64,000 nucleotides of DNA from Glaciecola sp. (GCA_018623155.1 JAAZVZ010000013.1:1-64000), one strand, 5' to 3'. Numbered from the stretch's first letter, positions 58,009 through 64,000 are shown. A program made the numbers and translations. Notes: a model not told the origin generated them from the letters alone.

Positions 58009-58050
58009 CCTGTATCACCTTAATCTTTTAAGAGGACACAGGCTTTTTTT
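58009..58050 (+). terminator. Terminator-like hairpin in the TonB receptor leader region
   Basis: CCTGT-ATCAC-CTTAA-TCTT-TTAAG-AGGAC-ACAGG followed by C-TTTTTTT. Confidence 0.6.
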
Positions 58051-58105
58051 CATTTAAATTCGATACGGCTTATCTTAATCAATTAAGAAAAATTAAAAAG
58101 TTCGC

Positions 58106-58192: not shown

Positions 58193-61147
58193 ATGAAAAC
58201 AAAACAATTATTCAAGCCAGCTTTGCTGTCTTTGGCTGTTGCTTCAGCCTTCACTTCTGGCACTGTATTAGCACAAGATGCTAATCAACAGGCCGACAAC
58301 GTAGAAGTAATCGCGGTTAAAGGTATCCGTGGTTCACTTATCCGTGCTCAAGCGGTTAAACAAGATTCAACATCGATTGTTGAAGCAATCTCTGCTGAAG
58401 ACATCGGTAAATTACCAGATTCATCTATCGCAGAATCACTTGCACGTCTACCAGGTCTAGCCGGTGAGCGTGTTAACGGTCGTACTTCTGGTATTTCTGT
58501 ACGTGGTTTTAAAGAAGACTTCGTTGGTACGTCAATCAATGGCCGTGAAGCCATTTCAATCGGCGATAACCGTGGTGTTGAATACGACTTATACCCATCA
58601 GAAATTATGACTGGTGCAACGATTCATAAATCAGCATCGGGTACTTTGTTAACTCAAGGTATCGGTGGTACCGTTGATTTACAAACCGTTCGCCCATTAA
58701 ACGCAGAAGAAACCTTAACGGTAACGGGTATCTACGAAGCGTCACAAGCACCAGCGGATAACCCTGATTTTGACGACAAAGGTCATCGTTATTCATTGTC
58801 TTTCGTCGAAAAATTCGCGGACGACACTATCGGCCTAGCTGTTGCTATCGCTTCTACTGAATCACCAAACAACCAACGTAAGTATGGTGTTTGGGGTTAC
58901 GGTGCGAATGACGATGGTCAATTTTTACCATTTGGTCTAGACCTTAACTCTCAATCAACGCGTCTAGAACGTGATACCATTTCTGCAGTTTTACAATTCC
59001 AACCATCTGATGACCTAGATATCATTGTTGATTATTTATCAATCGATTATCAAGATTCAGGTGTGTTACGTGGTTTCATTGAACCGTTTGCAACCGCAGA
59101 CTTACAAGGTGAAGGTGTCAACGTTTCTGGAACACAAATCAACGCACAACCAGTATTGCGTACTGACCCACTCAATAAAGATGGGCAACTTGATTCTTAT
59201 GGAATCAAATTAGAATATGCACTAAACGATGATTGGTCAGCAACGGTTGATTATGCTTACTCTGAAGCAGATAAGTTCGAACAACGTGCTGAATCATACG
59301 CTGGTTTATCTCGTTCAAATGATCCATTACTTGGCCAGCGTACGTTCCAGATGTCATCTGAAGGTGTGTTTTTCACCGGCCAAACCGGTTTAGATGCATT
59401 CTCTGATCCAAACACACTACAACTAACAGGCCCTCAAGTCTGGGGTGGTGGTTTAGCGAACCTTGCTTCTCAGTTTGCAACAGACGCGATCCCAGGTGAT
59501 CAGGATTATTTGTATGCGCAAGATGGCTTCAACAACAAGTTCAGCATTGCTGAAGAATTAACTCAATTCAAAGTTGAAGTTGAAGGTAACCTTGACCATG
59601 ACGTAGTTCAAAAAGTAACGTTTGGTTTAGCATATACTGATCGCTATAAAGACAAAATCAACAACGGTAACTTCGCAACTGCTTCAACTTTCCCAGCAAC
59701 GGAATCTGTAACTGAAGCAAACGTACCAGTTTATGGTCTAACTGACCTAACATGGGCTGGTTTAGGCTATGTTGTTGCATATGATGGTGCCGCTCCATAC
59801 AACAATGGCTACTATACACAAAACGACGGTGAGTGGTTAGAACCAGACCGTTTCGGTGATTCATATGTTATCGAAGAAGAAGTCACTACATTATACTTCC
59901 AAGCAGACTACACAACTGAAATCGGCGGCTTAGAAGTATTTGGTAACTTTGGTGCGCAGTACGTTGACACTTCACAGTCTTCAAGCGGTACACTAGGCGT
60001 TATCGGTGCGAACTTCCGTGTGTGTGACGTCAATGGCGACGGCCCAACTTCATCTTCACTCGCACAAGGTGCAGATCCATTAACGTCTATCGTTGATTTG
60101 TCTGAGTTTGTGGACCCAGAGTGTAAAGTGGAAGACGGTAACGACTACTCTCACTTCTTGCCATCATTTAATATTAATGCAGAAGTAGCGGATAATACGT
60201 TTGCACGTTTTGCAGCATCTAAGACGATTTCTCGTGCACGTATCGACCAAATGCGCGCATCAGGTTTCGTGAAATTCGATATCAACGAACAATTCATCAC
60301 ACTTGAAAACGAAGATGTCCTAAACGGTGCAGGTTCACCTTGGTCAAAAGTTGCGGGTAACCCGAAACTTAAGCCACTTGAATCAAACAACTTTGACCTA
60401 TCAGTTGAAAAATATTTCGACGATGAAGGTTATGTTGCGGGTACGTTCTTCTATAAAGACATCGTGAACTACACGCGTTCTGCTAACCCAACTATCAACT
60501 TCCGTAACGATGAGTTCAATAACGGCGCAGATTACTTTGTACCAGGTTTCCATGACCGTGTTCTAACTGATGACGTTGTGAACTCACAAAATGGTAACAC
60601 TTACACTGCAGGTACTCTTGTCACACCACCTGATTTTGGTCAGTTCTCATTCTTCGAAGACGGATTGAAAGGTTCAGTATCTGGTTTAGAGTTAACTGCT
60701 AACGTTCCGTTAAGCGTAATTGATGCTTCTCTAGATGGATTTGGTGTGGTTGCCACAGCAACATTCATTGATGCAGAGCTGGATGATGGCTCAGCTATCC
60801 CAGGTCAATCTGATGAGATCTTGTCAGTTGTTGCTTACTACGAAAACGAAGGTTTTGAAGCACGTATCGCGATGACGGATCGTGACGGTTTCACAACGTA
60901 CGAGCGTGGTGGTTCAAACAAGATTGCTGAAGCAACTCGTGACGGCACTAAAGTAGTCGATGCTCAGATTTCTTATGATTTCGAAAACGCAGGTATCGAA
61001 GGTTTAGAAGGCCTACGTCTGTCTCTACAAGGAACCAATATCCTTGATGATGCAGACCAAGTATCACGTGACGGTAACGGCATCGTTACAACACGTCGTG
61101 AGTTTGGTGCCACTTACATGCTTAACGTGAACTACTCTTTCTGGTAA
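58193..61147 (+). CDS. TonB-dependent receptor (Xanthomonas/Caulobacter-type subfamily)
   Basis: 984 aa; signal peptide; TonB-box-like VEVIAVKGI; plug LPDSSIAESLARLPGLAGERVNGRTSGISVRGF; C-terminal LNVNYSFW. Confidence 0.95.
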   Translation: MKTKQLFKPALLSLAVASAFTSGTVLAQDANQQADNVEVIAVKGIRGSLIRAQAVKQDSTSIVEAISAEDIGKLPDSSIAESLARLPGLAGERVNGRTSGISVRGFKEDFVGTSINGREAISIGDNRGVEYDLYPSEIMTGATIHKSASGTLLTQGIGGTVDLQTVRPLNAEETLTVTGIYEASQAPADNPDFDDKGHRYSLSFVEKFADDTIGLAVAIASTESPNNQRKYGVWGYGANDDGQFLPFGLDLNSQSTRLERDTISAVLQFQPSDDLDIIVDYLSIDYQDSGVLRGFIEPFATADLQGEGVNVSGTQINAQPVLRTDPLNKDGQLDSYGIKLEYALNDDWSATVDYAYSEADKFEQRAESYAGLSRSNDPLLGQRTFQMSSEGVFFTGQTGLDAFSDPNTLQLTGPQVWGGGLANLASQFATDAIPGDQDYLYAQDGFNNKFSIAEELTQFKVEVEGNLDHDVVQKVTFGLAYTDRYKDKINNGNFATASTFPATESVTEANVPVYGLTDLTWAGLGYVVAYDGAAPYNNGYYTQNDGEWLEPDRFGDSYVIEEEVTTLYFQADYTTEIGGLEVFGNFGAQYVDTSQSSSGTLGVIGANFRVCDVNGDGPTSSSLAQGADPLTSIVDLSEFVDPECKVEDGNDYSHFLPSFNINAEVADNTFARFAASKTISRARIDQMRASGFVKFDINEQFITLENEDVLNGAGSPWSKVAGNPKLKPLESNNFDLSVEKYFDDEGYVAGTFFYKDIVNYTRSANPTINFRNDEFNNGADYFVPGFHDRVLTDDVVNSQNGNTYTAGTLVTPPDFGQFSFFEDGLKGSVSGLELTANVPLSVIDASLDGFGVVATATFIDAELDDGSAIPGQSDEILSVVAYYENEGFEARIAMTDRDGFTTYERGGSNKIAEATRDGTKVVDAQISYDFENAGIEGLEGLRLSLQGTNILDDADQVSRDGNGIVTTRREFGATYMLNVNYSFW

Positions 61148-61179
61148 ACACGTTAACGATGTAAGTTCAACGCAACACA

Positions 61180-61215
61180 AAAGGTCTCTTTAGTCTCGAC
61201 TAGAGAGACCTTTTT
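61180..61215 (+). terminator. Intrinsic terminator between the TonB receptor and halogenase 1
   Basis: AAAGGTCTCT-T-TAGTC-TC-GACTA-G-AGAGACCTTTTTC, long near-perfect stem plus T-tract. Confidence 0.85.
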
Positions 61216-61266
61216 CTTTTTACCGCTGATGTTTTACGGTATAGTTTTTACATTACATATTTAGGT

Positions 61267-62766
61267 GTGCGTTTCATGCAAGCTATCAAAAAAGTCCTTA
61301 TCGCGGGCGGTGGTACAGCAGGTTGGATGACTGCAGCGTTAATGAGCAAAGTGCTTGGCCAGCAGGTACAAATCGCTCTTGTCGAATCTGAAGAAATCGG
61401 GATTATTGGGGTAGGCGAAGCGACCATCCCACCCATTCAAACATTTAACAAATTTTTGGGTTTAGACGAGAAAGCGTTTTTACGTGAAACACATGCCACC
61501 ATGAAACTCGCAATTCAATTTGAGAATTGGCGAGTGAAAGGCGAGAGCTATTTACATACTTTTGGTGCACCGGGAGCGAGTTTAGGATTTTGCAACTTCC
61601 AACATTACTGGGAGCGCGCTAAACGCCAAGGTGTCAAAGGCTCAATTTGGGATTACGATCTAAACTACCTCGCTTGTAAGCAAGGTACATTTAACAAAAT
61701 CAATACCCAAAATCCAATTTATGATATGCCGTATGCTTATCATTTTGATTCGGCATTATATGGCAAGTTTCTGCGTGGACTCGCTGAACAATCTGGCGTC
61801 GTTCGCCATGAAGGGATTATTGAGCATGTTGCGCAGGACCCTGAAACAGGTCATGTCTCCGGCGTTCAATTGACCGATGGCCGTCAGCTAGAAGCCGATC
61901 TGTTTGTTGATTGCACCGGTTCACGAGCGTTGCTTATCCAAAAGACTCTTGGCGTTGCCTATGAAGATTGGTCACATTGGTTACCTGCTAACAGTGCGTT
62001 GGCTGTACCGACTGAACGCCATGATAAAACCGCTCCTTATACTCGTTCGATCGCTCACGATAACGGTTGGCAGTGGCGTATCCCTCTTACCCATCGCAAT
62101 GGTAATGGGATCGTATACAGCACAACTCACACCACCGATGAAGCGGCTCTGGCAAACTTAATGGGTAACCTTGATACCAAACCTTTGGCCGACCCCAAAC
62201 AGTTGCGCTTTAACACTGGCCGAACCAGCAAACAATGGTACAAAAACGTCATTGCTGTAGGATTAAGTTCAGGGTTTTTAGAGCCATTAGAATCGACTTC
62301 CATTCATCTTATTCAGTCTGCTATCGTCAGATTATTAAAGCTTTTCCCGCACCAAGGCATTCAGGACAGCGCAGTGGAAGCCTTTAATGAAGAAGGGCGG
62401 ATTGAATACGAAACCATTCGCGACTTCATCATCTTGCATTACAAAGTCACCGAGCGTGATGACAGCGAGTTTTGGCAAGCAATGCGCAACTTGGAGGTAC
62501 CCGACCGTCTGCAACACAAAATTGACCTGTTTACTTCAGTTGGTGAAGTGTTCAACGACCAACATGATATATTTCGAGATGCGTCTTGGATCCAAGTTAT
62601 GTATGGCCAAGGGTTGACCCCACAAGACTATCACCCAGCGGCCAATGCGATGAACTTAGATGATCTCAAGGCCACCTTAGATAAAGTACTCGCAGCCAAG
62701 CAACAACCTCTCGCGAAGATGTTGCCACACGATGACTATATCAAAGCGTTTTTAGGAGCGGCCTAA
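61267..62766 (+). CDS. Flavin-dependent tryptophan halogenase-family protein (halogenase 1)
   Basis: GGGTAGWM FAD motif; GVGEATIPPIQ; ATMKLAIQFENW (candidate catalytic Lys); GWQWRIPL (WxWxIP); SSGFLEPLESTSIHL. Confidence 0.93.
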   Translation: MRFMQAIKKVLIAGGGTAGWMTAALMSKVLGQQVQIALVESEEIGIIGVGEATIPPIQTFNKFLGLDEKAFLRETHATMKLAIQFENWRVKGESYLHTFGAPGASLGFCNFQHYWERAKRQGVKGSIWDYDLNYLACKQGTFNKINTQNPIYDMPYAYHFDSALYGKFLRGLAEQSGVVRHEGIIEHVAQDPETGHVSGVQLTDGRQLEADLFVDCTGSRALLIQKTLGVAYEDWSHWLPANSALAVPTERHDKTAPYTRSIAHDNGWQWRIPLTHRNGNGIVYSTTHTTDEAALANLMGNLDTKPLADPKQLRFNTGRTSKQWYKNVIAVGLSSGFLEPLESTSIHLIQSAIVRLLKLFPHQGIQDSAVEAFNEEGRIEYETIRDFIILHYKVTERDDSEFWQAMRNLEVPDRLQHKIDLFTSVGEVFNDQHDIFRDASWIQVMYGQGLTPQDYHPAANAMNLDDLKATLDKVLAAKQQPLAKMLPHDDYIKAFLGAA

Positions 62767-64000
62767 TGCAAGCCACATCAGACAAGCAACAATTTGTAAT
62801 CGTCGGAGGTGGTACTGCTGGTTGGATGGCTGCCTGTTTGTTGGCTCATCACTGGCGTGATAAGGTCGATGTCACCTTGGTGGAGTCTCCAGAGATTGGT
62901 ATCATCGGCGTCGGTGAAGGTTCAACACCGACTTTAAAGCGTTTTTTTTCTGATCTAGGTATCTCTGAATCCGATTGGATGCCACGCTGTCACGCTACCT
63001 ACAAGACCAATATTCGCTTTGTCGACTGGTCTCCAGAGTCTGGGGTTGATAGCTATTCTCATCCTTTTATTTGTCAGCTTGATACGTTTTCTGAACGTGC
63101 ATTTTACTTAAATTGCTTAACTCGTCGGTTAGGGCTTGATGTCGAAACGACGCCTGAAAAACTATTGTTCAACGGTTGGTTAGCGAACTATCAATTAGCG
63201 CCTGTTACCCCGCCGCATTTTCCATTTAACATTGAATATGGATATCATTTTGATTCTGGATTACTCGGTCAGTTTTTGGCAGAGCATGCTGTACAGAAGC
63301 TTGGAGTCAATCATATTCAAGCGAATGTAAAAGCCATAATGACCGAAGCCAACGGCAACATCGGACGTATTTCATGTGCAGATCATGAAGATATCCACGG
63401 AGATTTTTTCATTGATTGTACTGGTTTCAAATCAATGTTATTGCAAGACACATTAGGTGTGCCATTCCATTCATTCTCAAACAATCTGTTTAATGATTCA
63501 GCTGTGGTATTCCCTACAGAGGTAATGAATGATCTACCCGTTGAGACACGAGCAACAGCGCTATCAGCTGGTTGGACTTGGCAGATCCCACTGACCCATC
63601 GAACTGGTAACGGCTATGTATATTCTTCCCAATACATTAGCAGCGAAGATGCAGAAAATGAATTAAGAACCCACCTAGGGCTTGGCAAAGAAGCTGAAGC
63701 ACGTCATTTAACGATGCGCGTGGGGCAGGTTGAAAAACATTGGGCTAATAACTGTATTGGTTTAGGATTATCGCAAGGGTTCATAGAGCCCCTTGAGGCT
63801 ACTGCACTACACTTGGTACAAACCAGTGTCGAAATTTTTATGGATGAATACGAAAAAGGGAACTTCACTGCGCAGCAACGCGATAACTACAACGCCACGA
63901 TCACTGAACGATTTGAACGAGTACGTGATTACATTGTGGCACACTATAAACTCAATACACGCAATGATAGTGATTATTGGCGGGACAACCGCAATAATAA
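62766..64000 (+). CDS. Flavin-dependent tryptophan halogenase-family protein (halogenase 2, partial at right edge)
   Basis: Hand translation from ATG 62766: GGGTAGWMAA; GVGEGSTPTLKRFF; ATYKTNIRFVDW; GWTWQIPL; SQGFIEPLEATALHLVQ; no stop before 64000. Confidence 0.92.
   Translation, partial: MQATSDKQQFVIVGGGTAGWMAACLLAHHWRDKVDVTLVESPEIGIIGVGEGSTPTLKRFFSDLGISESDWMPRCHATYKTNIRFVDWSPESGVDSYSHPFICQLDTFSERAFYLNCLTRRLGLDVETTPEKLLFNGWLANYQLAPVTPPHFPFNIEYGYHFDSGLLGQFLAEHAVQKLGVNHIQANVKAIMTEANGNIGRISCADHEDIHGDFFIDCTGFKSMLLQDTLGVPFHSFSNNLFNDSAVVFPTEVMNDLPVETRATALSAGWTWQIPLTHRTGNGYVYSSQYISSEDAENELRTHLGLGKEAEARHLTMRVGQVEKHWANNCIGLGLSQGFIEPLEATALHLVQTSVEIFMDEYEKGNFTAQQRDNYNATITERFERVRDYIVAHYKLNTRNDSDYWRDNRNN

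Follow-up and report, generated by a model that had tools for sequence, protein, structure and literature searches.

A TonB-dependent receptor and two tandem flavin-dependent halogenases in a predicted sucrose/alpha-glucoside regulon of a Glaciecola-like bacterium

The receptor and its two halogenases

The window, a stretch of 64,000 nucleotides (GCA_018623155.1, JAAZVZ010000013.1:1-64000), belongs to a 2.3-Mb Alteromonadaceae MAG that is Glaciecola/Opacimonas-like, with Glaciecola and Opacimonas as its nearest named records. At its right-hand end lie three + strand genes in the order TonB-dependent receptor (TBDT, 58193-61147), flavin-dependent halogenase A (FDH-A, 61267-62766) and flavin-dependent halogenase B (FDH-B, from 62766), an arrangement that a sequence-only reading had proposed and that was confirmed here. 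The receptor has a signal peptide-like start, scores 455.6 bits to TIGR01782 (TonB-Xanth-Caul; cut-off 310), is also matched by PF07715, and has orthologues of 61-95% identity in relatives. FDH-A is listed with a GTG start at 61267, and an ATG at 61276 is equally possible. FDH-B, whose start overlaps the FDH-A stop codon by one base, occupies 62766-64000 and runs past the window end to a stop at position 64265 of the extended, 69.5-kb contig.

The two halogenase ORFs score 612 and 413 bits to PF04820 (curated cut-off 21). FDH-A keeps the GxGxxG FAD motif, Lys80, WxWxIP at 268 and Glu339 of the F-x-EPLE segment; FDH-B keeps the same FAD motif, Lys80, WxWxIP at 270 and Glu341. Judged by these residues both enzymes look catalytically competent, as had been suggested, and the alignments contain both members of the Lys/Glu pair on which that suggestion depended. 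The two had also been called divergent, a term that fits their sequences, since they share only 33% identity, and not their orientation. Among aligned FDHs from related loci, the catalytic Lys is kept in 147/150 and the Glu in 146/150, and WxWxIP is almost invariant too. In TBDT loci of four genera we also observed full-length FDH-fold paralogues that lack the FAD motif, WxWxIP and the catalytic Lys and/or Glu; these are possible pseudoenzymes, and they sit between or beside intact FDHs (L128:7869-9371, L145:11682-13118, L134:8275-9840, L129:9930-11453 and also L118:8606-9964).

Among PDB matches of FDH-A, 9luq ranks first (537 bits), followed by Xcc4156 of a different organism, Xanthomonas campestris (6y1w, 487 bits), and BrvH (6frl, 418 bits), with tryptophan halogenases at 283 bits at most. 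By this ranking FDH-A is clearly of the BrvH/Xcc4156 type, i.e. group C. FDH-B is about equidistant from Th-Hal (308 bits) and BrvH (292 bits). Halogenases of groups A and B hold tryptophan by a Trp4 motif such as YYHGLPPYS (PMC8269204). FDH-B has LASHFGTTSW at the position of that motif in Th-Hal, and at the ATFS/HPFE motifs listed for groups A/B in the motif table of PMC8269204, FDH-A has ATIPPI/HTFGA and FDH-B GSTPTL/HPFIC. The window pair thus shares GxGxxG, the catalytic Lys and Glu, and WxWxIP with PrnA, RebH, PyrH and Th-Hal, members of the same family, and differs from them in lacking the Trp4 motif and in lying outside a natural-product cluster. Because FDH-B lacks the Trp4 motif and FDH-A is of the BrvH/Xcc4156 type, the substrates of both are probably other than tryptophan. 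AlphaFold predictions for FDH-A and for one orthologue of FDH-B, built on shallow alignments, were not good enough for further use (mean pLDDT 52 and 45).

A strong terminator-like hairpin of 16 pairs followed by a T run lies on the + strand in the gap between TBDT and FDH-A (61179-61214), and comparable hairpins are found in 53/57 TBDT-FDH gaps, against 0.17 expected. Its location upstream of FDH-A suggests that the halogenases are probably expressed below the receptor level, or from their own promoter. The hairpin weakens any simple claim that receptor and halogenases form a single operon, and it may wholly uncouple the halogenases from the receptor transcript.

Rightward extension of the contig placed a GH97 alpha-glucosidase gene next after FDH-B, on the opposite strand (contig 64292-66415). 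Its protein best matches the GH97 alpha-glucosidase 5HQ4 (843 bits), with 425 bits to SusB and no more than 206 bits to alpha-galactosidases. The contig ends 5.2 kb downstream, in a segment that holds GH97, a glycosyltransferase-like gene and small proteins. No NRPS, PKS or tailoring genes were found near the halogenases on the extended contig, which bears out their earlier placement outside any such context and led us to reject a biosynthetic cluster. An esterase and a DUF885 peptidase are encoded upstream of TBDT. The exported esterase had been named with the receptor as a neighbour of the halogenases; it is present, but it and the DUF885 gene, like GH97, adjoin the TBDT-FDH-A-FDH-B unit in the nearest relatives only. 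Neither SapC nor cupin genes occur at the window locus.

The source genome has four PF04820 genes: the window pair, one on C42 with two GH13 genes and a LacI gene as neighbours, and one on C11. The last (C11:44036-45601, equivalent to L006:9036-10601) stands alone next to a gene for a DinB-like polymerase; it has no receptor gene close by, and inspection by eye of the bases upstream revealed no operator.

Operators and the predicted sugar regulon

Searching the upstream regions of these genes for LacI-type palindromes yielded 43 matches, against 3.6 expected, and two motifs. Motif 1, TGmATACGTATkCA, is MalR-like and marks maltodextrin loci, while motif 2, CTTAAwCrwTTAAG, is that of the sucrose/alpha-glucoside regulon. 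The TBDT promoter in the window contains a predicted motif-2 operator without mismatches (CTTAATCAATTAAG, 58074-58087), the centre of which is CA rather than CG, a feature that counts against the explanation favoured below. A pattern search of the genome also returned a second, weaker operator-like site with 1 mismatch (CTTAATCTTTTAAG, 58019-58032).

Further motif-2 sites with zero mismatches precede GH97 (contig position 66425), a sucrose phosphorylase gene on C38 (TIGR03852, 451.6 bits; cut-off 334.4) that is adjoined by a LacI gene, a PfkB fructokinase-like gene (C1), a GPH symporter gene with a GH13 (C39) and another GH13 gene (C50). One more precedes a DUF3450-ExbB operon (C14:2255-2268, L192), which suggests that a TonB energising system is also under sugar control. 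A perfect motif-2 operator was likewise observed before an APH/EcKL-type kinase-like gene without a known sugar link (C3:2848-2861, L191). The C42 halogenase and a cyclomaltodextrinase-like GH13 gene have a common divergent promoter that carries motif 1.

Similar sites recur in other genomes. When promoters of FDH-followed TBDT genes were examined (n = 58), motif 1 was found in 35/58 and motif 2 in 14/58, compared with shuffle expectations of 0.0 and 0.025, ratios that are somewhat optimistic because the motifs were defined on overlapping data. LacI genes beside four of the relatives with motif 2 encode proteins 42-47% identical to that of C38.

The genome thus combines a TIGR01782 receptor, glycoside hydrolases, a GPH symporter and a LacI regulator with common operators, the make-up of a TBDT carbohydrate utilisation locus. 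Sugar loci that combine a TBDT with a LacI regulator are well documented (PMC1790865, PMC2996990), and the CUT loci of Caulobacter MalA, Xanthomonas SuxA and Shewanella OmpMal/MalR resemble the window regulon in having a TBDT, a LacI regulator, alpha-glucosidases and a sugar permease. They differ in that the word "halogenase" is absent from the main text of PMC1790865 and "halogen" from that of PMC2996990. Among open-licence PMC full texts, we found no paper joining halogenases to TonB-receptor sugar loci. What is new here is a LacI-type operator in the TBDT promoter, with zero-mismatch copies at sugar genes across the genome.

Regulatory and neighbourhood evidence argues strongly that the window pair belongs to a sucrose/alpha-glucoside uptake regulon, and the TBDT gene is apparently induced by sugars of the sucrose or maltose type. 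The sequence-only reading had considered it plausible that an aromatic or glycan-linked substrate is imported and halogenated; operators and gene content point instead to plain sucrose/alpha-glucoside and maltodextrin uptake.

Halogenases and receptors in related genomes

Orthologous TBDT-FDH-A-FDH-B units were found in about 45 of the relatives compared, as well as in Novosphingobium. Where FDH-B is at least 54% identical, the gene order is almost always TBDT > FDH-A > FDH-B, and in most relatives the two halogenase genes either lie end to end or share a few bases. Genes for pullulanase, GH31, GH13, GH97, an MFS sugar transporter and LacI recur beside the unit. SucABCD-like genes, which we take to be a TCA-cycle block, adjoin many units; they were rejected as partners, as in the source genome the same block is found next to another receptor, one without an FDH. 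Outside the family, Novosphingobium carries TBDT-FDH-A-FDH-B-GH13, with FDHs 62-64% identical to an Alteromonadaceae copy, and a Qipengyuania plasmid carries an operon of overlapping genes in the order TBDT-FDH-GH13-GH13-GH97-FDH.

The proposed association of halogenases with TonB receptors proved real and systematic. In four FDH-rich relatives, 48/60 FDH genes lie no more than 6 kb from a TIGR01782 receptor gene, against about 5% (3-7%) expected; nearly all of those linked are downstream of the receptor and on the same strand, and 30/57 TIGR01782 receptors have a linked FDH. The glycoside hydrolases, SapC and cupin proteins that had been guessed as partners do occur in related loci. FDH-linked loci contain GH13, GH20, GH43, GH1, GH3, GH16, GH95, GH97, melibiase and LacI genes, and most of the SapC (18) and Cupin_8 (11) genes of the four relatives, whereas FDH-free receptors adjoin GH2, GH28, alginate lyase, sulfatase and GntR genes. 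SapC and Cupin_8 are not among the 25 commonest families beside FDH-free receptors, nor is DUF6445 among the families listed there. DUF6445 (PF20043) was observed repeatedly in TBDT-FDH loci (L115:7159-7860 and others; L200:6309-7004), and a Sphingomonas plasmid locus comprises GH43, TBDT, DUF6445 and FDH genes.

Halogenases in related genomes are also found in chito-, beta-gluco-, galacto- and xylo-type loci. Since receptors for a wide range of glycans are followed by FDH, SapC and Cupin_8, the common element would be the receptor system and not one imported substrate.

Possible roles of the halogenases

The explanation we favour, and hold to be reasonably probable, is that the locus serves a sucrose/alpha-glucoside regulon as its outer-membrane uptake unit and carries two dedicated flavin halogenases, probably of the BrvH/Xcc4156-like, non-tryptophan kind. 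The CTTAAwCrwTTAAG sites would be bound by a repressor of the LacI family, probably the product of the LacI gene next to sucrose phosphorylase on C38, and its relief by sugar would lead to co-expression of the receptor, GH97, GH13 glucosidases, symporter, sucrose phosphorylase, fructokinase and ExbB operon. The halogenases behind the hairpin would probably be made at a lower level, through read-through or from a weak promoter of their own, with FDH-A and FDH-B translationally coupled. Neither FDH-A nor FDH-B has a signal peptide, so action in the cytosol is expected. There, a general flavin reductase would supply FADH2, which would react with O2 and Br-/Cl- to give HOX, and the Lys/Glu pair would pass this on to an electron-rich ring in a substrate bigger than free tryptophan. 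The acceptor presumably lies in the receptor system or its accessory proteins and not in the imported sugar.

BrvH, which the Botany Bay metagenome encodes next to FHal gene 13, is a group-C enzyme with the catalytic motifs of the window pair, and, like that pair, it is one of two adjacent FDH genes outside a known biosynthetic cluster (PMC5945002). The passages of PMC5945002 used here mention no sugar-regulon link for BrvH, unlike the window pair, and FDH-A is closer to 9luq and Xcc4156. BrvH accepts indole but not Trp for halogenation, its active site is open and MibH-like, and indole was judged not to be its natural substrate (PMC5945002). Xcc4156 is also an indole halogenase, and for BrvH and the Xanthomonas enzymes alike the native substrate is described as unknown (PMC7336383).

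One alternative is that the halogenases modify protein, forming with SapC, Cupin_8 (JmjC-like) and DUF6445 a maturation kit whose target, before export, is the TonB receptor or a peptide associated with it. A substrate that belongs to the receptor system is attractive because FDHs follow receptors whatever the type of glycan; FDH loci are also where SapC, Cupin_8 and DUF6445 cluster, none of which is listed beside FDH-free receptors, and the open BrvH site resembles that of the peptide halogenase MibH (PMC5945002). However, alignments of FDH-linked and unlinked receptors contained no Trp column that was kept at 90% or more or was specific to the linked set, and receptor Trp and Tyr content was not raised after length normalisation. 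A universal Trp/Tyr target in the receptor was thereby rejected, with Trp content about equal per length. So was the C-terminal Trp of the window receptor, as the last residue varies among W, Y and F in FDH-linked orthologues. The window locus, moreover, has no SapC or cupin gene. For want of a conserved Trp target, we regard this reading as improbable. The broader version, in which FDH, SapC, Cupin_8 and DUF6445 form a dedicated system in Alteromonadaceae and Sphingomonadales for modifying TonB-dependent glycan receptors, or a secreted peptide that goes with them, and with it a cytosolic, sugar-induced halogenation step in nutrient uptake, is equally doubtful.

Halogenation of a small molecule imported by the receptor, an aromatic or an aryl glycoside, which is the kind of role that the sequence-only reading had proposed, also seems unlikely. 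Receptor and halogenase are physically linked, and group-C enzymes brominate indoles in vitro (PMC5945002), but the regulon is one for sucrose/alpha-glucan, and no genes for aromatic catabolism or natural-product synthesis were seen at the loci. A single orthologous FDH pair is shared between two sugar regulons, and further FDHs lie in other glycan loci, which argues against the imported substrate as the target. Least probable, to the point of being a slim chance, is that FDH-fold proteins have taken on a flavin reaction other than halogenation, or are neighbours inherited along with the locus whose function is not linked to sugar uptake: catalytic residues alone do not prove the reaction and sister loci retain degenerate paralogues that lack FAD or catalytic motifs, yet Lys, Glu and WxWxIP hardly vary across about 150 paralogues and the sugar-locus linkage recurs across classes.

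If the halogenases do belong to sucrose and maltodextrin regulons, as our preferred explanation holds, the inducers, growth conditions and likely acceptors would be narrowed to something that can be tested in culture. Since the TBDT-FDH-A-FDH-B trio lies in starch/sucrose loci of many marine bacteria, the role of the halogenases would be testable in sugar-grown cells. Some of these marine bacteria carry about 20 FDH genes per genome. If the explanation is true, halogenation, usually viewed as a matter of secondary metabolism, would be built into the primary sugar uptake of common marine bacteria.
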